Positions 1 through 17,067 of a stretch of DNA of 17,067 bases are shown here, piece by piece (position 1 is the stretch's first letter; each line of letters starts with the position of its first letter). The notes below the pieces were generated by a model. The model searched no databases and was not told the DNA's origin. It saw nothing but the letters and a program-made list of their open reading frames with translations. The DNA comes from Bacilli bacterium. GTDB lineage: Bacteria; Bacillota_I; Bacilli_A; RFN20; CAG-288. Where the stretch lies: assembly GCA_028707375.1 (NCBI GenBank), contig JAQWCB010000003.1:1-17067 (forward strand). Reading direction: 5' to 3'. The translations under genes and the position numbers were made by a program.

Positions 1-998
1 AATCTGACGAGAGAGAAACTTTGGAAAAATTAAAAAGCAATCCTTCCAAGGAAGATATTATTAATAAACTTAAGGAAGGTGGTATCGTTGGTTTAGGTGG
101 TGCCGGTTTCCCTAGTTTTATTAAATATAATACGAAAGATAAGATTGATACTATTTTAATTAACGCTATCGAGTGCGAACCATATTTGACAACGGATTTT
201 ATTATCGGCTCACGTGCTGATTTATCGGAAACGCTATCTACGATTAAAGTCTTTCTCGATGCTTTTGATATTCCGCAGTGTATAATCGGTATCAAAAGGG
301 ATAAGCCAGAAGTTATTGCTAACTTTTCGCGTACTTTAGAAAAGTTTGGCGATGATCGAATTGGACTCAAGACTGTTAAATCTGTTTATCCAGCCGGTTG
401 GGAGCGAGCTTTGATCAAGATGACACTCAAACGCGAATACGATAAGCTTCCAAGCGAATGTGGCGTTATTGTTAATAATTTGCAAACTGTGATGGAGATA
501 GGCAAATTATTTTTCCACGGCGAGACTATGTCATCACGCTTGATGACAGTTTCGGGAGAAGTGAATAAACCTGCAAATATTAGATTGCCTTATGGTACAC
601 TGGTAAGCGATATTCTTGAAGCCGCTGGTGGAGTTAAGACTGATCCGGCAGTGGTCATAAACGGAGGACCAATGACTGGTAGTCCTTATATGAATGGTGA
701 TATTCCCACTGCGATGCAAGCGAATGCTATCACCGTGTTAAAAAGAAAAAAAGTTAATACTTTACCTTGTTTGCGTTGCGGGGAGTGTACAGCTCATTGT
801 CCTGCTAACTTGCAACCTTGTGAAATCAATTTTGCAATCCAGCGAGGTGATTACGAACGCGCGTACAAACTCAATGCTTTAAGTTGTGTTGAATGTGGAC
901 TTTGCTCGTACGTGTGCCCTTCAAATATTGAAGTATCGCAAGGGGTAGCAAAGGCAAAACTTATGGTGCGACTCAAAGTTGCTATCAATAAAAAGTAG
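1..998 (+). CDS. rnfC: Rnf electron transport complex subunit RnfC (5' partial)
   Basis: Peripheral cytoplasmic subunit of the Rnf complex. It handles NAD(H), carries FMN and Fe-S clusters, and passes electrons to or from the membrane subunits. The frame is open to the left edge (first full codon at 3), reading SDERETLEKLKSN into the family's Gly-rich GGIVGLGGAGFPS stretch and the ECEPYLTTD motif, so the TTG at 21 is internal and roughly the N-terminal quarter (the barrel-sandwich domain) lies outside the window. Two CX2CX2CX3C tetra-cysteine motifs near the C-terminus (Cys codons at 768/777/786/798 and 885/894/903/915) bind two [4Fe-4S] clusters. The end, rich in Lys and Arg, is at the family's usual place. 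The next gene follows after 11 nt with a GGGGAGG ribosome site, so this is one operon. Family assignment is secure. Confidence 0.95.
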   Translation, partial: SDERETLEKLKSNPSKEDIINKLKEGGIVGLGGAGFPSFIKYNTKDKIDTILINAIECEPYLTTDFIIGSRADLSETLSTIKVFLDAFDIPQCIIGIKRDKPEVIANFSRTLEKFGDDRIGLKTVKSVYPAGWERALIKMTLKREYDKLPSECGVIVNNLQTVMEIGKLFFHGETMSSRLMTVSGEVNKPANIRLPYGTLVSDILEAAGGVKTDPAVVINGGPMTGSPYMNGDIPTAMQANAITVLKRKKVNTLPCLRCGECTAHCPANLQPCEINFAIQRGDYERAYKLNALSCVECGLCSYVCPSNIEVSQGVAKAKLMVRLKVAINKK

Positions 999-1009
999 GG
1001 GAGGAAGAT

Positions 1010-2659
1010 ATGAAATTTTCATTGGAAAAAGCTCCGCACTTAGTATCGTCGCGATCAACGAGAAAAATAATGACCATCCTAAGTATTTCACTCTTGGTCT
1101 TAAGTATCTATGCTATCGCTTGGTATTTTGTAAAAGCGGGCAGTAACTATGGTGTTCATGCCATATTGATATTTGTTGTTTCCATTGTGACGAGTGTTGT
1201 TGCGGATGCCCTGTGGGCGATTCCAGCGCTGCGGGATAAAAAGGTAAAGTCATTTAAGGAAAGACTTCAGAATTGGGGTCTAAAAATACTTGATTCTTAC
1301 GGCTATGTTTCAGGTCTCATCTTTGCTTTGTTGCTTCCGGTAGGAACAACTTTATATGTTGTGTTTATCGGAGCTTTCATTGGGACTTTCCTTGTCAAAT
1401 CCATCTTTGGTGGCTTTGGGAAAAATATTTTCAATCCTGCGATTACAGCAAGGATATTAGTTGGTGTCAGTTTTCCTTCAGCGTTGTCGACAACCCTAGG
1501 CGACGATGTTGCGACGAGCGTTATGAGTGGAGCATCTATCACCACTACAACGGCTAATTTAGGGTGGACTACTAACTTGCAAGGAATTTCTTTAGGCAAT
1601 CTCTTCATGGGAAACTATCGTGGAACCTTGGGAGAGACTTTTGCTTTTTTGATTATATTAATTGGAATTGTGCTCATTGTTTTAAAAGTTATCGATTGGC
1701 GCATTCCTACGTTCTATCTTGCTTCGCTTTTTGTTACGGCCATTATTATGGGATTGACATCAGGATTGGGTGTTCATTCATTTGAATTTGGCTTGCGTAA
1801 TATTTTGCTCGGCGGCGCGATGTTCGGGGCTGTCTTCTGTTTAACTGATCCAGTCACTTCACCGACTTCAAGGCAGGGAAAAATAATATATGCAGTGAGT
1901 GCTGCACTGTTGACTTGCTTGATTAGATATCAAGCATCATCGGTTGAAGGTGTTGGTTTCTCTATTATGTTAATGAACATTTTGACTCCGCTCATCGATC
2001 GCTTGTGCGTCTCTAATTCGAATAAGAAAATTGGAGTTAAGGTGGGAACCATCAGTGGTATTGTGGCCTTAACTTTAGTCTTTGGTGGAGTTTATGGTAG
2101 CTTAAATAAAACCAGTGATACCTATTCTTCTACGGTTGAAAGATGTGATGAGAATATGGATTTGTATGACATTGCACTCGATATATCGCGTAAGAATGCA
2201 TATGGATATGAAACGGTTGACAGCGAGGTTACATTGAATCACGGCACATGCTTGAAAAAAATCAATTTCACTTTGGATGATGAACCTGCTAGTTACTATC
2301 GCTTGCGCACCGATCCAAAGGATTCATACAATTATAAAAATTTGGAAACGCCGATTGATGGCTACATTGAATTTAGCATCGTTGTTAATAACGACGGAGT
2401 TGTCGGATATAAATATATTGATGGCACAGAAAATTCCTTGGGAATTGAGTTTGCTCAACAGATATCTATAACTCCAGAATATCCATATTACAACGGGAAT
2501 ATAACTACACAAAATGTTGTGGTTGAGTCTGGTGCAACTTCGGCGGTTAATTCGATTGTTACTATTCCTTCAATGCTTAAAACCATGCAGGATGCTGAAC
2601 GCGATTTTGGCTTAAATGTATCAAATGCATATCCAGTCGCTATAAAGGAGATATATTAA
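1010..2659 (+). CDS. rnfD: RnfD fused to a C-terminal RnfG-like FMN-binding module
   Basis: Integral membrane subunit of Rnf, normally about 310-350 aa; this one is 549 aa. Residues 1-335 are a typical RnfD/NqrB membrane domain with FGGFGKNIFNPAITAR (133-148) and the closing LIDRL motif. The covalent-FMN motif, usually (S/T)GAT or (S/T)SAT, reads SGAS (173-176). Beyond residue 340 come an extra helix (about 343-365) and an extracytoplasmic domain (about 370-530) that aligns by eye with the domains of the next gene (DG-VVGYKYI, G-TENSLG, YPYYNG) and ends in a flavinylation-type SGAT (507-510, Thr510 codon at 2537). The helix plus domain layout is that of a complete RnfG protein, so I read this as an RnfD-RnfG fusion. 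It is one uninterrupted frame, with GGGGAGG upstream and one base before the next gene. Confidence 0.92.
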   Translation: MKFSLEKAPHLVSSRSTRKIMTILSISLLVLSIYAIAWYFVKAGSNYGVHAILIFVVSIVTSVVADALWAIPALRDKKVKSFKERLQNWGLKILDSYGYVSGLIFALLLPVGTTLYVVFIGAFIGTFLVKSIFGGFGKNIFNPAITARILVGVSFPSALSTTLGDDVATSVMSGASITTTTANLGWTTNLQGISLGNLFMGNYRGTLGETFAFLIILIGIVLIVLKVIDWRIPTFYLASLFVTAIIMGLTSGLGVHSFEFGLRNILLGGAMFGAVFCLTDPVTSPTSRQGKIIYAVSAALLTCLIRYQASSVEGVGFSIMLMNILTPLIDRLCVSNSNKKIGVKVGTISGIVALTLVFGGVYGSLNKTSDTYSSTVERCDENMDLYDIALDISRKNAYGYETVDSEVTLNHGTCLKKINFTLDDEPASYYRLRTDPKDSYNYKNLETPIDGYIEFSIVVNNDGVVGYKYIDGTENSLGIEFAQQISITPEYPYYNGNITTQNVVVESGATSAVNSIVTIPSMLKTMQDAERDFGLNVSNAYPVAIKEIY

Positions 2660-2660
2660 T

Positions 2661-3656
2661 ATGAATAATTATGTTAAATTTCCTTTAGTCCTTGGGGGAG
2701 TGTGCTTAATTTGTGGCACAGCCTTAGCTGGTGTTAACTATATGACTGAAGACATTATTGCCCAGCATATTATTGATGCTAAGCAACAGGCCATCTTTGA
2801 CATTTTAGATGCTAATGACTTGTCTTTAAAAGGCGATTCATCAACGATTGTTGAAATTCCCTGGACTGATGGACACGCCGATACATTGGATACGAGAAAA
2901 CTTGTCCCTTGCACTGACGCTGATTACTACTACTATCAAGCAACAACTGAACCTGGTTATTCAGGAACGGTAACTTTTGGTGCTTTAGTTGATGCTAATT
3001 ATGATATTGTTGGTTACAAGTATATTACTGGTGATGAAGATGATATCGGGAAGAATGCTTCACAGAAGATAACAATCAGCGTGGAATATCCTTACTCTGG
3101 TGGCAATCTTGTAGCGGGGGAGACTATTGAATCAGGAGCTTCGGCTAAGGTTACACTTCCGAAGGTTGTTTCAGCTTTAGAAGATATTATTACTGATGCG
3201 CAAACTATTTCCGGTGGAAATGTTGACACTGATGAAAATTTGGCGACAATTTTGGAAAATGATGGTTTGGAATTAAAGAGTGGTTCAGAAGTTACGGATA
3301 TACCTTGGGAAGGTGAACATGCAAGTACCTTGAATATTCGAAAGCTCGTTCCTTGCACTGATGCTGACTATTATTACTATGAGGCAACAACGGCAACTGG
3401 ATATGCTGGAACCATTACTTTCGGGGCTTTGGTTGATACTAATTCCGATGTTGTCGGCTTTACATACATAAGCGGAACCGAAGACCATTTAGGAAAGAAT
3501 GCTGTGAAAAAGATTACTATCAATCTCGAACATCCTTATTCCGGCGGTGCGTTTGTTGATGGCGAAACTATTGAGTCTGGAGCGTCAGCGATGGCGACTT
3601 TCCCTGTGGTGGAAGCGGCACTTGAAGATATTATCGCTGATGCGCAAACATTATAG
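2661..3656 (+). CDS. rnfG: RnfG-like subunit with two tandem FMN-binding domains
   Basis: RnfG carries a covalently bound FMN outside the membrane and relays electrons between RnfD and the rest of the complex; usual length is about 180-220 aa. This protein has 331 aa: an N-terminal helix (about 7-25) typical of RnfG, then two very similar domains at about 46-182 and 197-331. Both contain RKLVPCTDADYYYY, TFGALVD, an E/D-rich loop ending in GKNA, YPYSGG-type and ETIESGASA motifs. The residue that normally takes FMN (Thr of SGAT) is Ser in both (Ser161, codon 3141; Ser309, codon 3585). A Cys (84 and 232) is conserved between copies. The start ATG lies 1 nt after the rnfD stop, with AAGGAG before it. 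Whether the Ser residues are flavinylated is unknown. Confidence 0.9.
   Translation: MNNYVKFPLVLGGVCLICGTALAGVNYMTEDIIAQHIIDAKQQAIFDILDANDLSLKGDSSTIVEIPWTDGHADTLDTRKLVPCTDADYYYYQATTEPGYSGTVTFGALVDANYDIVGYKYITGDEDDIGKNASQKITISVEYPYSGGNLVAGETIESGASAKVTLPKVVSALEDIITDAQTISGGNVDTDENLATILENDGLELKSGSEVTDIPWEGEHASTLNIRKLVPCTDADYYYYEATTATGYAGTITFGALVDTNSDVVGFTYISGTEDHLGKNAVKKITINLEHPYSGGAFVDGETIESGASAMATFPVVEAALEDIIADAQTL
2796..3206 (+). repeat. FMN-binding domain, copy 1 of tandem duplication in rnfG
   Basis: Encodes about residues 46-182 of RnfG. It matches copy 2 (3249-3653) motif by motif at the protein level and shares visible DNA identity, for example around the CTTGCACTGA block at 2909 and 3352. 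The high similarity points to a within-gene duplication younger than the divergence from the related domain at the end of rnfD. Confidence 0.8.
3249..3653 (+). repeat. FMN-binding domain, copy 2 of tandem duplication in rnfG
   Basis: Encodes about residues 197-331 of RnfG. Same motif order as copy 1, joined to it by a short Gly/Asp/Glu-containing linker (about 183-196). Its SGAS acceptor Ser is encoded at 3585-3587. The gene stops soon after the helix that follows this motif. Confidence 0.8.
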
Positions 3657-3670
3657 GAAGGATGGATAAG

Positions 3671-4369
3671 ATGAATAAATTAAAAAAATCTAAAGGAAAG
3701 ATAATTCTTAATGGTATTTTTTCGGAAAACCCCATTCTTTCATTAGCCTTAGGGCTTTGTCCTGTTATTGTTTCAACCCAGTCCATCGATAATGCTATCG
3801 GTATGGGCGCAGCTATATTAATCGTTCTTGTTCTATCGAATTTAATTGTGTCTTTGATTAAGAACTTTATTCCTTCCGATGTTAGAATACCAGTCTACAT
3901 CGTGATTATTGCGTCTCTTGTTACTTGTGTTCAGCTTTTGATGGAAGCCTATACTCCAGAATTGGCTGCGGCCTTGGGAGAGTTCTTACCTTTGATTACA
4001 GTTAACTGCATTATCTTAGGAAGGGCCGAAGCCTTTGCGGCTAAAAATACTCCACTCGATTCAGTGATGGATGCTATTGGTATGTCTTTGGGTTTCTTCT
4101 TGGCGTGCCTTGTCATCGCTTTCTTCCGTGAATTTTTAGGAACGGGCGGCTTAGTGTTGACTAATCCTTTTACAACCGAAACAATTTTCAGTTGGCATCC
4201 GCTTGAAGCGTATGCTATTCCTGTAATGATTCAAGCGACGGGTGGCTTTATGTGGATTGGAATTATTATGGGATTGTTCAATATGTTGCTGATGCATTCT
4301 AACGACAAAAAAGCCAAGAAAAAGAAAGAAGCCGCGAAAGTTGTTTGTCCTGCGGCTCAGAAAGCCTAG
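3671..4369 (+). CDS. rnfE: Rnf complex membrane subunit RnfE
   Basis: Six-helix integral membrane subunit of Rnf, paired with RnfA. Together they hold a membrane [2Fe-2S] centre and form the ion and electron path. The 232 aa contain the family signatures NGIFSENPILSLALGLCP (14-31) and LPLITVNCIILGRAEAF (106-122), with both cluster-type cysteines present (Cys30, Cys113). The C-terminus is a Lys-rich cytoplasmic tail (213-219). I chose the ATG at 3671 because AGGAAGG (3655-3661) lies 9 nt before it. An in-frame ATG at 3662 directly abuts that ribosome site and would add three residues. Standard length and sequence, with none of the unusual features seen in RnfD, RnfG and RnfB. Confidence 0.95.
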   Translation: MNKLKKSKGKIILNGIFSENPILSLALGLCPVIVSTQSIDNAIGMGAAILIVLVLSNLIVSLIKNFIPSDVRIPVYIVIIASLVTCVQLLMEAYTPELAAALGEFLPLITVNCIILGRAEAFAAKNTPLDSVMDAIGMSLGFFLACLVIAFFREFLGTGGLVLTNPFTTETIFSWHPLEAYAIPVMIQATGGFMWIGIIMGLFNMLLMHSNDKKAKKKKEAAKVVCPAAQKA

Positions 4370-4382
4370 GAGGTAATACAAA

Positions 4383-4955
4383 ATGACATTTATCGTTACA
4401 TTGATTTCAACGATGATCATCAACAATATCATCTTGGCGGGATATAAAGGATTGTGTTCTTATTTTGGAATTTCCTCCAATATGTCTTCCGCGGTAGGGA
4501 TGGGATTGGCTATGACGGTCGTATCTTTTCTATCGGGTCTAATTTGCTGGGGCTTGCATTTTGCGACGATAGCCTTAGGCATTACTTATTTGAATACGGT
4601 TTTATTTATTCTAGTTGTTGCCTCACTGGTACAGATTCTCGAAATCGTTTTGAAAAAATTTGTTCCAAGCTTATATAAGGCTCTCGGTATCTACTTGCCG
4701 TTGATTACTACTAATTGCGCTGTCTTAGGTTTAGCCTTAGCTCTTACTACTTATGGTGCTGCTGATTGGCAAGCCGTTTTAGGAACATGCCTTGGTATGC
4801 CTTTAGGTTACTTCTTGATTCTCGTTATTTTCTCAGCTGTTCAAGACAAGTTGAAATTGACAACTACTCATCGTGCCTTCAAAGGCTTGGCAATCTCTTT
4901 TATTGCTACAGCTTTTATGGCTTTAGCTTTCGTTGGATTTACTGGACTTTTATAA
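4383..4955 (+). CDS. rnfA: Rnf complex membrane subunit RnfA
   Basis: Partner of RnfE in the membrane core of Rnf, homologous to it in an inverted topology. It is 190 aa with about six hydrophobic helices. Signature elements are NNIILAGYKGLC (14-25), GMG at 39-41 and LPLITTNCAVLGLAL (105-119). The two cysteines expected to ligate the shared [2Fe-2S] centre are there (Cys25, Cys112). The usual GICPFLG around the first Cys is changed to GLCSYFG. A good ribosome site (AGGAGG, 4369-4374) precedes the ATG, and the next gene starts one base after the stop, so translation is probably coupled. Confidence 0.94.
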   Translation: MTFIVTLISTMIINNIILAGYKGLCSYFGISSNMSSAVGMGLAMTVVSFLSGLICWGLHFATIALGITYLNTVLFILVVASLVQILEIVLKKFVPSLYKALGIYLPLITTNCAVLGLALALTTYGAADWQAVLGTCLGMPLGYFLILVIFSAVQDKLKLTTTHRAFKGLAISFIATAFMALAFVGFTGLL

Positions 4956-4956
4956 T

Positions 4957-5208
4957 ATGAGCACTGGACTTAAAATATTTTTATCAATCTTATTGGTGGC
5001 TGTCTTGCTCGGGGCTTTTATCGGCACCTATGTGTGGAATAAGAAAACCAAGAAACCAGATAATTGTCCTAAGTGTGAAATATCTTGCGCGGGTTGCATG
5101 CTCAATTGTGCAAGCCGTGAAGAGGAAGTTTCAATTGAGAAAATTACGCATAATTTAACAGAAAATTTGCATCGCGACGATGCGAAAAAAGAAACGGAGA
5201 AGAAATAA
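4957..5208 (+). CDS. Small Cys-rich single-helix membrane protein inside the rnf operon
   Basis: 83 aa. One N-terminal membrane helix (about 6-26) is followed by a basic stretch (NKKTKK, 28-33), which predicts a cytoplasmic C-terminal part. That part carries five cysteines in CX2CX3CX2CX3C spacing (Cys37, 40, 44, 47, 51) and then a charged tail. The spacing suits an Fe-S cluster or metal site, but this is inference. The start ATG is 1 nt after the rnfA stop, and the stop overlaps the rnfB start (TAATG), so it is embedded in the operon at the place where rnfB normally follows rnfA. In general shape it resembles the short FeoB-associated Cys-rich membrane proteins, which is the main alternative reading. 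I do not recognise it as a known Rnf subunit. Confidence 0.8.
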   Translation: MSTGLKIFLSILLVAVLLGAFIGTYVWNKKTKKPDNCPKCEISCAGCMLNCASREEEVSIEKITHNLTENLHRDDAKKETEKK

Positions 5209-5534
5209 TGGATAGTGTTGCGAAAATATTTGTTGCGATAGGTCTCTTGTTTGGAGTAGCCGTCGTTCTCGGTGTGGTGATTGCCTTTATTGTTAATAAA
5301 TTTAAGGTTAAAGAGGATGAGCGTGCTATCAAATTGCTAGGAATGTTACCAGGAGCAAATTGCGGAGCCTGTGGATATCCTGGATGTGCTGGATTGCGAG
5401 ATGCCATAATTGAAGGAAAAGTCACAAAAATCAAATCCTGCAAAGTTATCTCGACTGAAGGTGCTCAGGAAATTGTGGACTATCTTAACTCGGCTGAAGG
5501 TGAAGATGGCTCTAAACTCAAGGTTACTTTGTAA
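5208..5534 (+). CDS. rnfB: RnfB, short form lacking the ferredoxin module
   Basis: RnfB normally accepts electrons from ferredoxin. It has an N-terminal membrane helix, a [4Fe-4S] domain and then at least two further 4Fe-4S ferredoxin motifs, for about 190-330 aa. Here there are only 108 aa: helix (about 7-29), then LLGMLPGANCGACGYPGC (43-60) with Cys52, 55, 60 and the fourth Cys78, then a short helix-forming end and a TAA stop. No ferredoxin-type Cys clusters occur in any following gene of this window, and the downstream sequence starts an unrelated gene 12 nt later, so this is not an obvious recent frameshift. The start overlaps the previous stop (TAATG), implying coupled translation. Identity is secure; its electron-transfer role in this form is uncertain. 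Confidence 0.9.
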   Translation: MDSVAKIFVAIGLLFGVAVVLGVVIAFIVNKFKVKEDERAIKLLGMLPGANCGACGYPGCAGLRDAIIEGKVTKIKSCKVISTEGAQEIVDYLNSAEGEDGSKLKVTL

Positions 5535-5546
5535 TATTAAGATTTG

Positions 5547-6131
5547 ATGATTAAGAGAAATCAAGCCAAACTAATCAAATTTAATTGGCGGGATATTGTT
5601 GCTATTGTGACTGTGGTAGCTATTACTGCCACAGTTTTTGTATGGACATTATTTGTGATGCCTTCGGCTAGTCAAAATGTCGATACGTACCTATTAGCCC
5701 GTTATCACAATGATGTGATTTTTCAGAATTTGCCAGTTAGGGATGGTCCAACATCTTTGGAATACGTCATTTCCTTTCGTCGCGATTTAAGAGTAAACGA
5801 GACTTATACCAATACTTATAAAGAAGGTGAAATTAAGAATATTGAAGCGACAAACTTAGCAGATGTGACTTCTCCGAGCGAAGTTGACGGTTACTATTTG
5901 ATCGTTAACTCTACTTCTGATGATGTATTCAATGGCTTTCGCGATTTGGTTGGGCCGCAAGTCGATGTCAAAGTTTTCAATATGGGGTTTCAAGTTATTC
6001 TTGAGGATTCGCCTGAAAACGTTTGCTCTAAGCAAGGCTTTACTGACAATGCCAATGTACCGGTTGTATGTCTTCCTAATTCAATGTTTTTTTGGCTTGC
6101 TTCCAATAGTTATGACGGTCCGGATGCATAG
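5547..6131 (+). CDS. NusG domain II-type membrane-anchored protein (EetA-like)
   Basis: 194 aa with one N-terminal membrane helix (about 17-38) and an extracytoplasmic remainder. The end carries the hallmark of the NusG domain II family (PF07009): VCSKQGF (159-165) followed by VVCLPNS (173-179), with the paired cysteines Cys160 and Cys175. The family's usual CP before the first Cys is SPENV here. The anchored form of this family has nothing to do with transcription. It is commonly found beside Gx-transporter-like proteins, FMN-binding proteins and ApbE, and the Listeria extracellular electron transfer protein EetA is, to my knowledge, of this type. Start: ATG at 5547 (a TTG lies one codon upstream), 12 nt after rnfB. 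It is part of the same operon, and its role in passing electrons outward is inference. Confidence 0.8.
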   Translation: MIKRNQAKLIKFNWRDIVAIVTVVAITATVFVWTLFVMPSASQNVDTYLLARYHNDVIFQNLPVRDGPTSLEYVISFRRDLRVNETYTNTYKEGEIKNIEATNLADVTSPSEVDGYYLIVNSTSDDVFNGFRDLVGPQVDVKVFNMGFQVILEDSPENVCSKQGFTDNANVPVVCLPNSMFFWLASNSYDGPDA

Positions 6132-6140
6132 GAGAGAAAA

Positions 6141-6659
6141 ATGAAAATACGCAAGATGACAGTGACAGCTCTATTGGTAGCCTTAGCAATTATTTTTCAC
6201 TATATTGAATCATTTATTCCAGTTATTATTCCGGGATTTCATTTGGGTCTGGCCAACGTGATAAGTCTTTTTGCTCTCTTTTATATGGGATGGCAGTATT
6301 ATCTATCCGTTCTCTTTCTTCGCGTTGTCTTAGTCGGTTTGATGTTCACGGGTTTTGGCACGACCTTTATGCTTTCTCTCGGTGGCGCTATTTTAAGTAG
6401 TATATTTACTATGATTTTATATTTTTTCACTAAAACATCAATCTATGGCGTATCAACTGTTTCGGCTTTCGCCCATGTTTTAGGACAAATTATTGTTTAC
6501 ATCGGAATCGTTAATACCGCTTATATGCTTCTTTATCTGCCACTTCTGGCTGTTTTGGGAGTGGGATCTGGACTTATTTTGGCATATTTGACAGCTCACA
6601 TCATCAAAGTCCTTCCAAGTTTCAACAATATGTGTTCCATTCGACGGAACCATTCGTGA
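6141..6659 (+). CDS. Gx transporter / heptaprenyl diphosphate synthase component I family membrane protein (EetB-like)
   Basis: 172 aa, about five or six membrane helices. Matches the Hpre_diP_synt_I/Gx-transporter family (PF07456) through HLGLANVISLFALFYMG (34-50), FLRVVLVGL (59-67), SLGGAILS (79-86) and the HVLGQ (112-116) region. Despite the family name it lacks prenyltransferase motifs. Members resemble the substrate-binding membrane part of ECF-type transporters and often pair with NusG-domain-II proteins and ApbE in flavin-based extracytoplasmic electron transfer loci. AGGAGAG precedes the ATG by a few bases, and the gap to the previous gene is 9 nt. It ends with TGA, the only such stop among the complete genes here. 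It is the last gene of the closely packed rnf run; about 105 nt follow before metK, with no clear terminator. Confidence 0.82.
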   Translation: MKIRKMTVTALLVALAIIFHYIESFIPVIIPGFHLGLANVISLFALFYMGWQYYLSVLFLRVVLVGLMFTGFGTTFMLSLGGAILSSIFTMILYFFTKTSIYGVSTVSAFAHVLGQIIVYIGIVNTAYMLLYLPLLAVLGVGSGLILAYLTAHIIKVLPSFNNMCSIRRNHS

Positions 6660-10294: not shown

Positions 10295-11722
10295 ATGAAA
10301 AGAGGAAAAAAGTTATATATCTTGTTAGCAACTTTTTTGCTTGCTTCGTGCGATTGGAGCTTTGTATCAAATCCAAATGAGAAACCATACGTTGAATATA
10401 CCATTAGCTTGGAGCAAATAAACAGCAAGACAGGATGGGTTCACATCAGCGATGCCGATGGAAACATTATCGACGATGTGACTAGTGATCCTTTTAATTC
10501 TAGTATTTATATTAAATATCAAGTAAAGAAGGGGCAAGGGCACGATTACGATTTTGAAAATGATTTTTCAAATGAAATGGGATATTATTCAGCTTTGTTT
10601 GATCGTCACAATTATTACTCGTACAAAGGAAAATTGCTTAACAATATTCGTGTCTTGAACGATAGTTATGGAACCGGTGAGGCTATCGTGGTACCAGATA
10701 TTCTATATAATTCCTTGAAGAAGGCTTTGAATTTTTCTTTGATAACCGACAATAAATTTAGTATCGGAATCGGTAATCTCTCTTCGCTTTGGGATGCTTA
10801 TATTTCAGCGGCCTCGAGCGCCGGCTCACTCTACGACAAAGAAAGTACCATGCAGCAGCGAGTAATCTATAATGATATTGCGGAAAGTTATGTTGAATTT
10901 GCGCGAATGACTTCTCCTTTGCCTGCTCAGCTGGCTCAAATGCTTGCTTTTAATGATGATGATCACAGCATTACCTTTAATAGTGATCAAGCCGTTGATG
11001 ATTATGTTGATAGTCATTTAGGTATCGCTAATGAGATCAAAATTAGTTCGACAGCTTTGGATTTGACAAAACCATCTATTACTTTGGGCGGTTTTGGTAA
11101 AGGTGAAGCAACTGAACTTTTTGTCGAAAATCACAATGAGAAAAGTTATTTGATGAATTCAGGGCACTCCTCAATTAAATGCATCAATCAGAAAATTGAC
11201 GGAACATCCTGGAGTCTCACGGTCGCTAACCCGTATTATTACGAGTCAGTCAAATCAGGAAATATAAATAATAACATAAATAATTCTGATATATATTTTA
11301 CGCATGATGGCTCTTTTGATTTATCGACTTCGGGATATTACGAGAATTATTTTTATGCTTATGAAGACGGGAAATACGTGCTACGCCATCATATTTTAGA
11401 TCCGCTTACGGGGTATTCAAACAATACTTTTGCCAGTGCTTCGGTTTTGCTTGATGATTCTGGATATGCTGATATGTATACGACAGCTTTGATGAACGCT
11501 TCTTCCATCAGTGAGGCCGAACAGCTTAGAAAGAAAATGGATCAGTATACCAATTTGAATTCGGAAGCGTATTATTTGATTAATAGCAATGTCGATAATG
11601 AAAAGAAGACAACCTGTTACGTCACTAGTTCACTTCGCGACTCTTTTAAATTTACAAACGAAACCTGGCCTAATAATTTTGAGAATGAACCGATTACTAG
11701 CATCGAGACAATTAGGGAATAG
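10295..11722 (+). CDS. apbE: FAD:protein FMN transferase (ApbE family), lipoprotein
   Basis: ApbE enzymes cleave FAD and attach FMN to a Thr (or Ser) in extracytoplasmic flavoproteins such as RnfG and RnfD. The 475 aa begin with a lipoprotein signal: basic start, hydrophobic stretch and lipobox LASC (Cys19), so it is anchored outside the membrane. Family motifs: FSIGIGNLSSLW (155-166), LGGFGKGEA (264-272, usual GGIAKGYA), DLSTSGYYENYF (342-353), HHILDPLTGYSNN (365-377) and ADMYTTAL (392-399, usual ADALSTAL) with the metal-binding Asp393 kept. It is longer and more divergent than the usual 300-350 aa, with added N-terminal sequence, an Asn-rich insert (about 322-331) and a tail beyond 415. Its likely targets are the Rnf flavin domains in this window. 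It sits apart from them under its own promoter. Confidence 0.85.
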   Translation: MKRGKKLYILLATFLLASCDWSFVSNPNEKPYVEYTISLEQINSKTGWVHISDADGNIIDDVTSDPFNSSIYIKYQVKKGQGHDYDFENDFSNEMGYYSALFDRHNYYSYKGKLLNNIRVLNDSYGTGEAIVVPDILYNSLKKALNFSLITDNKFSIGIGNLSSLWDAYISAASSAGSLYDKESTMQQRVIYNDIAESYVEFARMTSPLPAQLAQMLAFNDDDHSITFNSDQAVDDYVDSHLGIANEIKISSTALDLTKPSITLGGFGKGEATELFVENHNEKSYLMNSGHSSIKCINQKIDGTSWSLTVANPYYYESVKSGNINNNINNSDIYFTHDGSFDLSTSGYYENYFYAYEDGKYVLRHHILDPLTGYSNNTFASASVLLDDSGYADMYTTALMNASSISEAEQLRKKMDQYTNLNSEAYYLINSNVDNEKKTTCYVTSSLRDSFKFTNETWPNNFENEPITSIETIRE

Positions 11723-12822: not shown

Positions 12823-12846
12823 TAGATATGTGCAAAATTATATCTA
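12794..12846 (+). promoter_or_regulatory. Extended -10 promoter with overlapping dyad and 5' leader hairpin
   Basis: TGTTATTAT (12810-12818) is an extended -10 element. A 6-8-6 dyad (AACACA/TGTGTT, 12794-12813) overlaps it and could be an operator. The predicted start near 12825 coincides with the beginning of a 7-bp hairpin, TAGATAT (12823-12829) with ATATCTA (12840-12846). A second TATAAT at 12802-12807 is an alternative -10. Confidence 0.45.
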
Positions 12847-12874
12847 CGTATCATTTGGAGGAAAATCTATTACT

Positions 12875-13870
12875 ATGAACGAACAAACAAGATATGTTAT
12901 GGCTATTTACGAACTAGGAATCATCATTAGAGATTCAATGGAGTACTTGCTCCCGCCTGGCAAAAATGGATTTGATTTAAAAGTTTACAAATCTAGAAAG
13001 CAAATGTGTGCCCATCTCATTGATGAAAAATCGCCTTTTCAAATATTTTGTAACAACAACAAGGCAAAAGCCAAAGATTCGGATATGACAGTTGGTGAGA
13101 AAATCTCGAGCCAGGTTCACGAATTTTACGATGATGTATATGGAGAAGAATCACGAATCGTTAAAATTGATCACGATGCTGTTGTTGTTGAAACTTCATT
13201 GCTCTTACAATTAATGGATTACTGCATCGGTTTGCACGAGACAATTTCAGACATTTGTCTCGGTTTCCAAAATTCCTTTGAGAAAGCGGGAACGCTTGAA
13301 CCTGATTTAAAGCAATTATTGCTTTGCGATGATCCTTTTTATCGTTCCATAGCTTTTAGATCAATTGCAACTGTGTTTGTCGTTAAGTTTGCCGAATACA
13401 ATACTGCCGTTAAATCATATGTTCTTGCTGAACGTAAGAAAAATGGTGTTGATCCAACTAAACAACCAGGATTTGATCCCAAAGTCGATCCTTCTTGCGC
13501 CTTCATTTCCAACGAGATGACAAGAGTTGTCGGTTTCTTTAATTTCTTGAGAACTCACAATAAATCACACGATGTTATATTTGAAGATTCTATAAAGCGC
13601 ATGCAGGATGATTTCCACTATTTTGATGGGTCAAAGAAATTGGCTCCCGGTGAAAAACTTCAGGATGCCATGAAGCGTTTTGAGACAATCTTTGTCCCAA
13701 TCATTCCTGGATATCGCGATGCGTGGGTTCGTATTTTCAATAAAATATTTGGTGAATTGAATACATACGAGAAGGAAATGCTTAAAAAGGCTGAGGCTTT
13801 GAAAAAAGAAAAAGCAGAAGAAGCATCAAAAGAAGAGAAAAAAGACACTTCTAAAGATGAGGAGAAATAG
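12875..13870 (+). CDS. Conserved-looking hypothetical protein, soluble, charged C-terminus
   Basis: 331 aa. I do not recognise the family. No signal peptide or membrane helix is seen. The protein appears mostly alpha-helical and mixed in charge, with hydrophobic helices around 105-165 and a Cys at about 196 and elsewhere that show no metal-type spacing. The last 35 residues are a Lys/Glu-rich, probably disordered or coiled tail. The ATG at 12875 is preceded by GGAGGAAA (12857-12864), a slightly long spacing, and no better start exists; a GTG at 12830 would lie upstream of the ribosome site. The next gene starts 2 nt after the stop, and its ribosome site is within the end of this gene. The two products are probably made together, and the partner is a membrane protein, so this one may act at the membrane surface (inference). 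Confidence 0.85.
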   Translation: MNEQTRYVMAIYELGIIIRDSMEYLLPPGKNGFDLKVYKSRKQMCAHLIDEKSPFQIFCNNNKAKAKDSDMTVGEKISSQVHEFYDDVYGEESRIVKIDHDAVVVETSLLLQLMDYCIGLHETISDICLGFQNSFEKAGTLEPDLKQLLLCDDPFYRSIAFRSIATVFVVKFAEYNTAVKSYVLAERKKNGVDPTKQPGFDPKVDPSCAFISNEMTRVVGFFNFLRTHNKSHDVIFEDSIKRMQDDFHYFDGSKKLAPGEKLQDAMKRFETIFVPIIPGYRDAWVRIFNKIFGELNTYEKEMLKKAEALKKEKAEEASKEEKKDTSKDEEK

Positions 13871-13872
13871 AT

Positions 13873-14322
13873 ATGTCGAATAAGAAGAAACAAAAAAAGA
13901 AAGTAAGCGCAAGAGAAATTGTAGCTTATTCTATCACTGGTTTCTTTTGGCTAGGCGGTTTAGCTCTCTGTATTATGGGCGTTTACGCTTTTAATGGTCC
14001 GGGGAGAATTGTATACAATCCGATGTATTTAGCACAAAAAGGCTTTTCAAAATGGTTGGGTTGGTCTAGTACAATTGATTTCCGTATCTTAGGGACTATT
14101 ATATGTCTTGTTTCTATGGCGCTATTCTTGATGTTTGCTTACCATTATGCAAATAAGAATCGTGAGTTCAGCGAGCGTAGAAAACGTCAACTTGAACGTT
14201 TGAACGAACTGATTGCAAAGGATAAAGAACTCCAAGAAGTCAGCGATGAAGAAGCTACTGATCTTGATGAAGATAAAGTGATTGATGAGCTTCCTGAACA
14301 GACGACAGCTAAGATTAACTAA
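13873..14322 (+). CDS. Hypothetical two-helix membrane protein
   Basis: 149 aa. A Lys-rich start (NKKKQKKKVSARE) is followed by two membrane helices at about 19-40 and 74-93, predicting both ends in the cytoplasm. The roughly 30-residue loop between them contains NGPGRIVYNPMYLAQKG and would be outside. After helix 2 comes a charged helix likely to form a coiled coil (about 95-118) and an acidic tail. I do not recognise the family. It is closely coupled to the preceding gene (2 nt gap, GGAG ribosome site at 13860-13863). Its loop is too short for an enzyme domain, so an anchoring or scaffolding role with its neighbour is possible but not shown. Confidence 0.8.
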   Translation: MSNKKKQKKKVSAREIVAYSITGFFWLGGLALCIMGVYAFNGPGRIVYNPMYLAQKGFSKWLGWSSTIDFRILGTIICLVSMALFLMFAYHYANKNREFSERRKRQLERLNELIAKDKELQEVSDEEATDLDEDKVIDELPEQTTAKIN

Positions 14323-14447: not shown

Positions 14448-14876
14448 CTATAGGAACTTGTGGAATTTTTTAGGTATTTCTTCCCTTGGTAATTTCTCAA
14501 CTTCATCGAGCGAGCCCATCTCTTGAGCCTTAGCATAAAACCACTCTTTATATTCCAGCATTTCCAAATTGTCCTGTAACGATTGCATTTGTGCTAATAC
14601 TGAATCTTTTTGCTTCTTGATAATTTCAGCCCGCTTAGTGTACTTTTCGTCGCCTTGAGTATAGTAACTTACAAATGTTCTGATGTCTTTAATCGGCATT
14701 CCTGTCTGCTTAAGACATCCAATGATATTTAACATGCCTAAATCCGACTCTTTGAACATGCGGATTCCTCCATTGGTTCTTTCAATAAATGGAAGTAATC
14801 CTTCTTTATCGTAATAACGTAAAGTCGAGGCATTGACATCCATTTTTTTAGCAATTTCTCCTACGGTATAATACAT
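14448..14876 (-). CDS. MerR-family transcriptional regulator (NmlR/AdhR-like)
   Basis: 142-aa DNA-binding activator/repressor. The N-terminal winged helix is clear: YYTVGEIAKKMDVNASTLRY (2-21), YYDKEGLLPF (21-30), GGIRMF (36-41). It is followed by CLKQTGMPIKDIRTFV (54-69) and a long dimerisation helix (about 75-115). The single Cys54 matches the position of the reactive cysteine in NmlR/AdhR-type thiol and aldehyde sensors, so response to electrophiles is likely (inference from family). The ATG at 14876 is chosen because GGAGG (complement of 14885-14889) is well spaced before it; a GTG at 14891 would sit upstream of that site. A typical MerR promoter (14921-14951) lies just upstream, facing away. 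Confidence 0.92.
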   Translation of the reverse strand: MYYTVGEIAKKMDVNASTLRYYDKEGLLPFIERTNGGIRMFKESDLGMLNIIGCLKQTGMPIKDIRTFVSYYTQGDEKYTKRAEIIKKQKDSVLAQMQSLQDNLEMLEYKEWFYAKAQEMGSLDEVEKLPREEIPKKFHKFL

Positions 14877-14920
14877 TTTGACTTCCTCCACTCTTTATTT
14901 TAACTTTTTTAATAAAGTTC

Positions 14921-14951
14921 TTGACTTAAAGTTAACTTTAACTAGTATTAT
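14921..14951 (+). promoter_or_regulatory. MerR-type promoter with 19-bp spacer and dyad operator
   Basis: TTGACT (14921-14926) and TATTAT (14946-14951) are separated by 19 bp, the overlong spacer that MerR activators correct by twisting DNA. A perfect 16-bp palindrome TTAAAGTTAACTTTAA (14926-14941) lies in the spacer, as in AdhR/NmlR targets. It points rightward, away from merR, into a stretch of more than 300 nt without a convincing gene. Confidence 0.8.
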
Positions 14952-15137
14952 ATACTTAAGCCTATTGACAATAGTTTAATATAGTCGCAGGCAAATAACA
15001 ATAGGAGAATGTTAAAAAACGGAAATATTTATAGAATAGTCAAAATATAATAGAAATGTCATTTATCTCATGCGATTATTTCGTTGCGGTACGGAAAGTA
15101 ATATGTGAGCATATCAATCAATTTTTTATGATAAACA

Positions 15138-15146
15138 TGTTATAAT
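15138..15146 (+). promoter_or_regulatory. Extended -10 promoter upstream of DUF3737
   Basis: TGTTATAAT is identical to the hpf extended -10 element. No good -35 is seen. The predicted start is near 15153, giving a leader of about 125 nt. A second TATAAT at 15172-15177 is an alternative. Confidence 0.5.
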
Positions 15147-15174
15147 TCGTAAGCAAAGAGAGAATGATTATTAT

Positions 15175-15229
15175 AATTGTCTAGATGTTAAAGGAAAATT
15201 TATGCTTGAAAGCAATCATCTAGCTAATT
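15175..15229 (+). other. Stem-loop in the DUF3737 leader
   Basis: CTAGATG (15181-15187) pairs with CATCTAG (15217-15223), extended across a 2x2 internal loop by AATT (15175-15178) with AATT (15226-15229). A small hairpin TGCT-TGAA-AGCA (15203-15214) lies in the loop. It could be a regulatory leader structure; no known riboswitch class is recognised. Confidence 0.35.
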
Positions 15230-15278
15230 CGATATATTTAAAATTTTAACATTGACCTAGGTGATGAAGGAGATAAAA

Positions 15279-16166
15279 ATGAATAAAAAAATAGAAAATC
15301 AAACATTTCAGCAAGAACGAGCGTTATACAATCTAACTGATGCGGAAGTTATAAATTGCCATTTTGGAGGTGAAGAAGATGGTGAATCGTGTCTCAAGGA
15401 AGCAAGAAATATAAGTGTAAAGAATTCTTATATCAATCTTCGATATCCGATGTGGCACAATCATCATTTTGAATTGATTGATTCTGAACTTGATGAAAAT
15501 GCTCGTGCCGCTTTTTGGTACTCGACTGATGGATTGATAAGAAATGTAAAAGTCAAGACTATTAAGTCGCTGCGCAACGCTGAGCGCATTCGCATCGAGA
15601 ATTCAGATATCGTTGCGAAGGAAGTTGGATGGTTCTGCAAGGATATATATATGGAAAATTCTCATCTAGAGGGAGATTATCCTTTCCTTAGAGCAGAGAA
15701 CATCACAATTAACAATTCTAAAATAGATGGCAAATACAGTCTGCAATATATGGAAAATGTTCGCATAACTAATTCTATCCTAAATACAAAGGATGCTTTC
15801 TGGCATTCAAAAAATGTCGTTGTTGAAAATTGTAAAATAAACGGGGCATATCTAGCATGGTACGCTGAGGATATTACCTTCATTAACTGTGAGATTACTG
15901 GAACTCAACCCATATGTTATACTAAAAAAGTAAAAATGATTAATTGTACGATGCACAATACTGATTTAGCCTTTGAATATTCCGATGTTGAAGCGGATAT
16001 TGTTGGACATATTGATTCAGTTAAGAATCCTAAATCTGGATATATAAGGGCTGATTCAATTGGTGATATTATTTTGAAAGATTCTATAATGGAAACTAAC
16101 GCGGTAATCGAAGTCAGATCAGCCAAGGAAAATAGTGAAAAATGCATGTCGTGCTCCGCTAATTAG
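15279..16166 (+). CDS. DUF3737 family protein (right-handed beta-helix-like)
   Basis: 295 aa of short, repeated strand-turn units of the type I-x-N/D-S/C-x-I, as expected for a parallel beta-helix. It matches the DUF3737 (PF12541) pattern: QERALYNL (12-19), GESCLKEARNISVKNS (35-50), the aromatic cluster YPMWH, DAFWHSKNV, GAYLAWYAEDITFINCEITG, and LAFEYSDVEADIVGHIDSVK near the end. Function is unknown in the family; the fold resembles carbohydrate-active or scaffold proteins, but no catalytic residues can be named. The start at ATG 15279 follows AAGGAG (15267-15272) at good spacing. Two further start codons (15261 GTG, 15264 ATG) lie upstream of or beside that site. The C-terminal CMSCSAN adds two cysteines. 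It is probably cotranscribed with the cyclophilin-like gene. Confidence 0.9.
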   Translation: MNKKIENQTFQQERALYNLTDAEVINCHFGGEEDGESCLKEARNISVKNSYINLRYPMWHNHHFELIDSELDENARAAFWYSTDGLIRNVKVKTIKSLRNAERIRIENSDIVAKEVGWFCKDIYMENSHLEGDYPFLRAENITINNSKIDGKYSLQYMENVRITNSILNTKDAFWHSKNVVVENCKINGAYLAWYAEDITFINCEITGTQPICYTKKVKMINCTMHNTDLAFEYSDVEADIVGHIDSVKNPKSGYIRADSIGDIILKDSIMETNAVIEVRSAKENSEKCMSCSAN

Positions 16167-16235
16167 TTTGGGTCGATAAATAGTAAAATATTTTAAAATT
16201 AACTATAGAGAATAAATATGAAAGGAGTCACAATT

Positions 16236-16583
16236 ATGATTAATTTAACTATTAATTCTAAGGTTCTTCAAGTGGAACTTGAAAATAATTCATCAGCTCA
16301 GGCCTTAATAGAACTGTTGAAAAAAGGTCCGATAGAAATATCTATGAATGATTATGCGGGAATGGAGAAAGTTGGAAATCTGCCGACTAAACTTCCTAGA
16401 AATGATAAGCCCATCAATGTTGGATGGGGCGATGTCATTTTGTATCAAGGAAGAGCCTTTGTTATATATTATGAACACAATTCCTGGAATTTTACTAAAC
16501 TGGGAAAAATTGTCAATATTTCGAGAGATGCCTTAACTTCGATTCTCGGTCGAGGGTCACTAATAGCAACCTTATCTTTATAA
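16236..16583 (+). CDS. Cyclophilin-like fold protein
   Basis: 115 aa, matching the short bacterial cyclophilin-like family (PF18050 type). It starts with a beta strand (MINLTINSKVLQVELENNSSA, first 21), then ALIELLKKGPIEISMNDYAG (24-43), the family's KVGNLPTKLPRND (47-59), WGDVILYQGRAFVIYYEHNSW (about 66-86) and a final strand region. These proteins keep the cyclophilin barrel but lack the usual prolyl-isomerase catalytic Arg motif, and they are often encoded next to flavodoxin, oxidoreductase and CMD-family genes. ATG 16236 is chosen for AAGGAG (16222-16227) 8 nt upstream. It lies 69 nt after DUF3737 with no terminator between, and a terminator directly follows. Confidence 0.87.
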   Translation: MINLTINSKVLQVELENNSSAQALIELLKKGPIEISMNDYAGMEKVGNLPTKLPRNDKPINVGWGDVILYQGRAFVIYYEHNSWNFTKLGKIVNISRDALTSILGRGSLIATLSL

Positions 16584-16610
16584 AAAATGAGTCATTATAG
16601 ACTCATTTTT
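16583..16610. terminator. Intrinsic terminator after the cyclophilin-like gene
   Basis: AAAAATGAGTC (16583-16593) pairs perfectly with GACTCATTTTT (16600-16610) around loop ATTATA. The 3' arm ends in five T. The symmetric A/T ends would work on both strands. Confidence 0.85.
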
Positions 16611-16641
16611 AGTATTAAAACATATCTATAATAAGACAAAT

Positions 16642-16687
16642 AAAAAGCTGTTAGTAAATCAATTATGAATAGCTAACAGCTTTTTTT
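16642..16687. terminator. Bidirectional terminator between convergent genes
   Basis: AAAAAGCTGTTAG (16642-16654) pairs with CTAACAGCTTTTT (16673-16685), 13 bp with an 18-nt loop and seven T on the + strand. On the - strand it lies just after the stop of the CMD-family gene and ends in TTTTTA, so it probably serves that gene. Confidence 0.85.
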
Positions 16688-16704
16688 AAATGTATTAAAT
16701 CCAA

Positions 16705-17067
16705 TTATTTCTTAAGATCAGAGATAATTTTTAGCGCGTTAAGTACTCGAGGATAACCAATATAAGGAATCATTTGCTGAACTAATTTAGTCATAAATTC
16801 AATAGAATTTCCAACATTGATGTTTCCAATCAAATGAGATTTTAATTGACTAGCCGTATCGCCTTGACCTAATAGAAAGCAAAATGTAATGAGTTCGCGA
16901 TCTTTAAGTTCTAAGCCTTTACGCGTGTAATAATCTCCAAAACAATTTTCGGCTAATAATCTATTTACTGGGCTGGCTTTATAATAATCTTTCATCTGTT
17001 CACCAAATATTCTCACTTGGCAATCTATTCCTTTTTCCAATCTATTATCCATAGTTGTCGTCGATTG
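16705..17067 (-). CDS. Carboxymuconolactone decarboxylase (CMD) family protein, 5' partial
   Basis: Member of the AhpD/CMD alpha-helical family, which includes decarboxylases and peroxidase-linked thiol proteins. Visible motifs are ENCFGDYYTRKGLELKDREL (20 residues around the family's R-x-L-x(3)-R-E-L block), LGQGDTASQLKSHLIGNINVGNS and MIPYIGYPRVLNALKII. Cys residues are at ENCFG and ITFCF. There is no CXXC of the AhpD peroxidase type. The ATG at 17052 lacks a ribosome site, and the frame stays open to the window edge, reading QSTTT just before it. That is the linker typical of two-domain CMD proteins (about 230-250 aa), so I read this as the C-terminal half of a longer gene that starts beyond the right edge. 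It converges on the cyclophilin-like gene. Confidence 0.88.
   Translation of the reverse strand, partial: QSTTTMDNRLEKGIDCQVRIFGEQMKDYYKASPVNRLLAENCFGDYYTRKGLELKDRELITFCFLLGQGDTASQLKSHLIGNINVGNSIEFMTKLVQQMIPYIGYPRVLNALKIISDLKK

Follow-up and report, generated by a model that had tools for sequence, protein, structure and literature searches.

The rnf operon of a Bacilli bacterium (GTDB lineage Bacillota_I; Bacilli_A; RFN20; CAG-288) encodes an RnfG subunit with two tandem FMN-bind-type domains behind one membrane helix, and an RnfD subunit with a further domain of this type at its C-terminus. We consider it probable that this is a genuine Rnf complex in which the outward flavin carrier has been multiplied, with flavinylated heads of which the extra ones act as an external relay or buffer. 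The observed basis of this view is the gene order, the domain copies, the constraint on the acceptor column and the presence nearby of genes for ApbE and an EetB-like protein; from these we infer flavinylation itself, the topology of the RnfD tail, the electron route and an external partner.

The Rnf complex serves many anaerobes as a main respiratory pump, usually depicted as a closed loop that leads from ferredoxin to NAD+. Extra heads on two of its subunits suggest a longer external flavin chain than the textbook pump has.

The rnf locus

The DNA analyzed here (the window) is one entire contig of 17,067 nucleotides (C172 of the source genome G000, which has a size of 1.08 Mb and is 66% complete). 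Its rnf genes are arranged on the + strand in the order rnfC-D-G-E-A-(91-aa protein)-B. The rnfC reading frame (21..998, +; TIGR01945, 270 bits against a cut-off of 246; Complex1_51K) is open to the contig start, and retains the FMN/NAD domain. RnfC of same-genus genomes has 435-495 aa, and a truncated RnfC was rejected because the window is a whole contig that begins inside rnfC. It is followed by rnfD (1010..2659, +; PF03116, 237 bits), rnfG (2661..3656, +), rnfE (3662..4369, +; PF02508; NF009070, 236 bits against a cut-off of 184) and rnfA (4383..4955, +; PF02508; best NCBIfam model TIGR01943, 177 bits, below its cut-off of 229), placing rnfG between rnfD and rnfE of an rnf operon. Judged by their family matches, RnfA, RnfE, RnfD and the present part of RnfC look intact. 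An Rfam scan of the window gave no match at gathering scores.

Between rnfA and rnfB lies a gene for a 91-aa protein with a membrane helix and a Cys-rich tail (4933..5208, +). Proteins of this type occur in 44 loci of the order, including the window, with at least four Cys in 43 of the 44; the match to PF12669 is weak (18.5 bits, below cut-off). The protein may serve this type of Rnf as an additional iron-sulfur subunit. The rnfB gene that follows (5208..5534, +; PF04060) is short, its product consisting solely of a membrane helix and a single 4-Cys cluster domain. RnfB has 94-129 aa in 51 of the 51 loci of the order where it was found (among the window and L092-L151). In nearly all of these a membrane helix is combined with one CxxCx4Cx17C-type cluster, and the ferredoxin-type clusters that known RnfB proteins carry are missing. 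A literature search for RnfB without a ferredoxin domain in Bacilli found no paper.

Tandem domains of RnfG

The window RnfG (331 aa) was assigned from homologues, a domain alignment and the predicted fold. In the predicted structure it has a single N-terminal membrane helix and the NqrC/RnfG-type fold. Domain 1 covers about residues 38-183 (2772..3209, +) and domain 2 about residues 191-330 (3231..3650, +; HMM limits). The two domains share 63% amino acid identity and 67% DNA identity (281/420 aligned bases). A previous sequence-only reading had described two highly similar domains behind one membrane helix, spanning 2796-3653; the tandem is confirmed here and recurs in relatives, and that span corresponds to the post-helix part of the full gene (2661-3656, +). 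Ordinary RnfG has one domain and the window protein has two, hence it is a variant; with at least two FMN-bind domains and an acceptor in each, it falls into the multi-flavinylated RnfG group.

Neither RnfG copy nor the RnfD tail of the window is matched by Pfam FMN_bind (PF04205), and the domains were therefore identified through homologues, profiles and the predicted RnfG fold. RnfG also scores 37.3 bits on TIGR01947, against a cut-off of 102. Failure to reach the TIGR01947 and FMN_bind cut-offs is a detection convention and not a trait, and the RnfG proteins of several other members of the order do match PF04205. The domain HMM was built in five rounds from seeds including both halves of the window RnfG and the RnfD tail, and its matches to those copies are thus no independent proof of them. 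A DNA-level repeat finder reported no direct repeats in the window because the domain copies are too diverged. The RnfG model has a pTM of 0.71. Foldseek searches with the whole two-domain model gave low TM-scores (best 0.33 by query length), and the VIA-align fold rows cover mainly model residues 1-187, so chiefly domain 1.

The same tandem layout is present in related RnfG proteins, with two copies in P0004 and P0005 and three in P0002, the nearest named relative, which is from a 'Bacilli bacterium'. In a comparison using 35 of the 101 domain-HMM hits, the domain 1/2 pair has been kept since before four lineages split, and the duplication is thus older than several lineages.

The RnfD membrane site and tail

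An RnfD fusion had also been proposed from the sequence, together with up to four covalent flavins in the complex. Both proposals stand as far as candidate sites are concerned. RnfG used alone as a query matches positions 2318-2620 inside rnfD (E 9.5e-12, 36% identity), hhalign of the tail against the RnfG domain gives 98.7%, and there are four candidate covalent-flavin sites, two in RnfG and two in RnfD. The RnfD sites are Ser176, the acceptor position of the flavin site in the membrane part (SGAS; 1535..1537, +; located by codon and by alignment with members of the order, which mostly have Thr), and Thr510, the acceptor position of the tail domain (SGAT; 2537..2539, +; located by codon). The Ser at the membrane site is a point absent from the sequence-only reading. 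In the other fetched genomes this position is mostly Thr, with Ser in G001, G002 and G004 of the same genus and in G007, G018, G082 and G111; among 120 listed database relatives (of 528) it is Thr in 90 and Ser in 30.

Hydropathy and alignment suggest that residues 341-359 of RnfD (2030..2086, +) form an 11th membrane helix, which would place the C-terminus outside. The tail fold is assigned from sequence profiles, and its external topology is likewise a prediction. Long RnfD proteins are frequent in the order: 26 of the 59 fetched RnfD proteins have at least 480 aa, not counting that of G070, a piece cut by its contig (the 59 come from 64 genomes with a match, G009, G019, G020, G037 and G071 being outside the set). 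PF03116 and PF04205 are both present in 20 of the 120 listed database RnfD relatives (of 528). An acceptor-like motif occurs in the last 45 residues of 56 of 81 RnfD tails, the latter being relatives longer than 440 aa among the 120 listed of 528; the pattern was loose and run without a control.

Ser and Thr as flavin acceptors

The motif ESGASA had been noted in both RnfG copies, and codon positions agree exactly, identifying the predicted FMN acceptors as Ser161 in domain 1 (codon TCG; 3141..3143, +) and Ser309 in domain 2 (codon TCA; 3585..3587, +). The ApbE-substrate motif [S/T]GA[S/T] is thus found as ESGAS twice in RnfG, and as SGAT and SGAS in RnfD. The fuller motif is D-x-x-[S/T]-G-A-[S/T], with Ser used as an acceptor (PMC12052999), and Ser sites of a DUF3570 protein were reported to be modified (PMC8238504). 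The suspicion that the Ser sites were odd or probably unmodified was not upheld, Ser being an accepted ApbE target in these two reports. Replacement of Thr by Ser cut flavin loading by 10-55% (PMC12052999). The Asp at -3 is replaced by Thr in both RnfG copies, and is Asp in 25 of the 96 filled domains of the order; an Asp-to-Ala exchange at this position of K. pneumoniae fumarate reductase had a minor effect only (PMC12052999).

The acceptor column is Ser or Thr in 99 of 99 filled domains of the order, including those of the window (Thr 66, Ser 33), and it is the only purely Ser/Thr column among those with at least 80 domains filled. These 99 domains are not independent, several source genomes being closely related, and weak HMM matches may be misaligned at the motif; the set excludes the records P0003 and P0010, which duplicate G000 and G004 and hold three domains, as well as the gapped RnfD row of G088. 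On a quick tree from which the motif columns had been left out, at least 15 switches between Ser and Thr are required, and the 28 nearest domains have Ser in 17 and Thr in 11. The Ser/Thr-only column speaks against random drift at the Ser sites, which had been named beforehand as grounds for abandoning the proposal. Conservation of SGAS among homologues held only in part: the second domain of P0004 and several other relatives have Thr. Since Ser is a documented ApbE target and the column is restricted to Ser and Thr, both RnfG copies look like working acceptors and not like spacers, and Ser and Thr look like two interchangeable acceptors in nature, as this lineage suggests.

A lineage-wide Ser-specific ApbE was considered, since every genus member with a recovered RnfD (G000, G001, G002 and G004) has Ser at the membrane site of that subunit, and was rejected, as RnfG of G001, G002 and G004 carries Thr. 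Loss of an acceptor is probable in one place, a domain-like, HMM-undetected stretch in the RnfD tail of G002 that reads STGAV (by eye).

Flavin-loading genes

Downstream of rnfB, a gene encodes a NusG_II-domain membrane protein (5544..6131, +; PF07009, 27.3 bits, below the cut-off of 29.6), which we take to be EetA-like by its position. The next gene encodes an EetB-like ECF S component, a candidate FAD exporter subunit (6141..6659, +; PF07456, 112.7 bits), its function being suggested by L. monocytogenes EetB (PMC9973259). There, EetB is needed for flavinylation of PplA, and the family is reported beside Rnf in 572 Clostridia genomes (PMC9973259). Three other genes separate the PF07456 gene from apbE, which encodes an ApbE lipoprotein, a candidate flavin transferase (10295..11722, +; PF02424, 92.6 bits). 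Its TSG, HHILDP and Asp segments, which hold the catalytic Ser, His and Asp of ApbE (following PMC12052999), align with those of the solved structures 1vrm and 7esa. It is the only ApbE found in G000, an incomplete genome.

Across 117 relatives, RnfD was found in 64 and ApbE in 65, with both in 58 and neither in 46 (Fisher p 2e-18, relatedness ignored). ApbE was not found in six of the 64 RnfD-bearing genomes, including G009 (91% complete) and G071 (96%). L115 (G027) and L130 (G030) each have two apbE genes close to an rnf operon, and those of G027 are adjacent.

Head number and movement between subunits

The number of heads varies widely among relatives, so no fixed wire length is needed. Closest to the window, RnfG contains 1-3 domains and the RnfD tail 0-3 HMM-detected ones, and elsewhere in the order RnfG has up to 5. 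The window has two in RnfG and one in the RnfD tail, while G001 has three in RnfG, and a closely similar intact database RnfD (P0030) carries two tail domains. G002 combines a one-domain RnfG with an RnfD of 996 aa containing three HMM-detected tail domains in addition to the STGAV stretch, and G004 has a one-domain RnfG and an RnfD without a tail. Putative RnfG/RnfD pairs from the database, matched by equal lengths of their longest contigs, give 3+1 (P0002/P0020), 1+3 (P0006/P0022), 1+2 (P0014/P0026) and 1+2 (P0012/P0029) heads. By HMM, at least two domains are present in 9 of 55 RnfG proteins of the order, with up to five (1114 aa in G063, 1015 aa in G075), and five further members of the 55 exceed 300 aa with one HMM match. 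The count base is 55 because no RnfG frame was found in 4 of the 59 (G015, G021, G079 and G080); the G035 protein is a cut piece. The RnfG-position proteins of L132-L134 (G063, G075 and G082) have 1004-1114 aa and 4-5 HMM-detected FMN-bind-type domains. Relatives thus provide a natural series of heads (RnfD tail 0 to 3 detected, RnfG 1 to 5) for testing whether they connect the loop to the outside.

In G001 (L092, L093), a fragment lying upstream of rnfG was interpreted as the last part of the RnfD tail. This second tail domain shares 86-88% identity with RnfG domains 3 and 2 of that genome, and 41% with the first tail domain. This similarity points to exchange of heads between the subunits, with heads apparently copied between RnfG and RnfD. 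An intact RnfD of 671 aa carrying two tail domains (P0030) makes misassembly of the shared domain unlikely.

Proposed function

In known Rnf complexes, electrons pass from RnfB to the RnfA/E [2Fe-2S] cluster and on to the FMN of RnfG, which swings to RnfD, and then through RnfC to NAD+ (PMC12174285, PMC11889175). In the window, the EetB-like transporter (6141-6659) would supply FAD to ApbE (10295-11722), which would probably attach FMN to Ser161 and Ser309 of RnfG and to Thr510 (tail) and Ser176 (membrane part) of RnfD. RnfG head 1 is most likely the standard shuttle, carrying electrons from the RnfA/E [2Fe-2S] cluster through RnfG, RnfD and RnfC to NAD+. RnfG head 2 and the RnfD head would extend this shuttle into an external flavin relay or buffer, exchanging electrons with a partner outside the membrane.

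Counted against a flavinylated relay are the replacement of Asp -3 by Thr, the lower loading on Thr to Ser exchange, the probable acceptor loss in the G002 tail, the genomes in which ApbE was not found, the variable head number and the failure to identify a terminal acceptor. A scan for PF00890, aimed at an external FMN-linked fumarate-type reductase as the acceptor, gave 26 rows in seven of seven genomes. Of these, 25 are short matches at the start of the profile (within positions 1-67 of 414), and two of the rows belong to long reading frames (916 and 957 aa). The window itself gives no pointer to an acceptor beyond NAD+. Such an acceptor, also suggested by the sequence-only reading, may exist, and has already been proposed for multi-flavinylated RnfG by Meheust 2021 (PMC8238504).

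The alternative that fares best, to which we give a substantial minority chance, is that the extra heads are flavinylated and serve the normal ferredoxin/NAD+ cycle only, as additional carrier near the [2Fe-2S] cluster, as a buffer or as a gate, without any external acceptor. It is consistent with the presence of an RnfC with the FMN/NAD domain, with the absence of an identified external reductase in the PF00890 scan of seven genomes, and with RnfG heads ranging from 1 to 5 while the core rnf operon order remains constant across the order. However, canonical Rnf manages with one head and rotation of RnfG (PMC12174285), and three or more external domains in one complex would seem more than a single shuttle requires.

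Beyond the external relay or buffer, a wider proposal, which we regard as tentative and rather doubtful, is that the Rnf of this Bacilli order is an outward-connected exchanger, in which the ferredoxin head is gone from RnfB and interchangeable external flavin heads are carried by RnfG and RnfD. Such an exchanger would link a carrier in the cytosol with an extracytosolic acceptor or donor, NAD+ being one partner among others. External flavin-type domains total 3 to 5 in several members of the order.

It is improbable that the Ser copies stay unmodified and act as spacers or protein-contact modules. Ser is a poorer ApbE target (PMC12052999), Asp -3 is missing, and the G002 tail stretch seems by eye to have lost its acceptor, but the acceptor column remains Ser/Thr throughout the order with repeated switches between the two, and P0004 domain 2 carries Thr at the place of Ser309. 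Neutral tandem growth by recombination, with copies staying loadable only because broken ones disturb the complex, is very improbable: near relatives do differ in copy number (RnfG 1, 2 or 3; RnfD tail 0 to 3 detected) and the G001 RnfD tail end closely resembles its own RnfG domains 2 and 3, yet the window domains, at 63% identity, have both been retained since before four lineages split.

Relation to known systems

Multi-flavinylated RnfG and its second electron route are already in print, and the window is a variant of this type. Meheust 2021 (PMC8238504) describes RnfG in rnf clusters with more than one FMN-binding domain, and proposes a second electron path to external acceptors. Unlike the proteins described there, the window domains are missed by Pfam FMN_bind, as are the domains of all five same-genus genomes. 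Surveys relying on Pfam would therefore probably leave them out, and tallies of multi-flavinylated proteins made in this way can miss a whole genus. The window RnfD also bears such a domain, a feature not mentioned in the accessible sections of that paper.

Canonical RnfG/NqrC proteins (9eri_G of A. woodii, 7zc6_G of C. tetanomorphum) resemble the window RnfG in having one membrane helix, a stalk, an antiparallel sheet and an acceptor at the start of the last helix, but differ in having one head and a Thr acceptor (T185 in A. woodii, PMC11889175). SaFMN3 and CbFMN4 (PMC10339131) likewise have tandem FMN-bind domains and a predicted membrane anchor, and SaFMN3 holds three FMN by ESI-MS; however, these are not Rnf subunits, their acceptors are Thr and their domains are more than 80% alike. 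FMN-bind2 domain pairs, with facing sheets and two flavin sites, have been described in a study that also modelled a two-domain Erysipelotrichaceae protein (PMC11334425), but have ∼160 aa per domain and often even numbers of domains, whereas here the domains have 140-146 aa and occur in 1, 2, 3 or more copies. For EetB-dependent FAD export (PMC9973259), the likeness is a PF07456 gene beside rnf and near apbE, a colocalization reported for Rnf, with the function here assigned by analogy.

Within the portions of the literature consulted, no account was found of such RnfD tails, of RnfG and RnfD having heads in common or of this genus, some of which supplementary tables may list, and no description of an RnfB lacking the ferredoxin head in this order.

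Other genes of the window

Further downstream, a pair of neighbouring ORFs (12830-14322; 346 and 149 aa) has no Pfam match at E 0.001, the 149-aa one having two apparent membrane helices (by eye). The region 14448-17052 contains a gene for a DUF3737 protein (15261-16166, 352 bits), with genes for a MerR regulator, a cyclophilin-like protein and a carboxymuconolactone-decarboxylase-type protein nearby.
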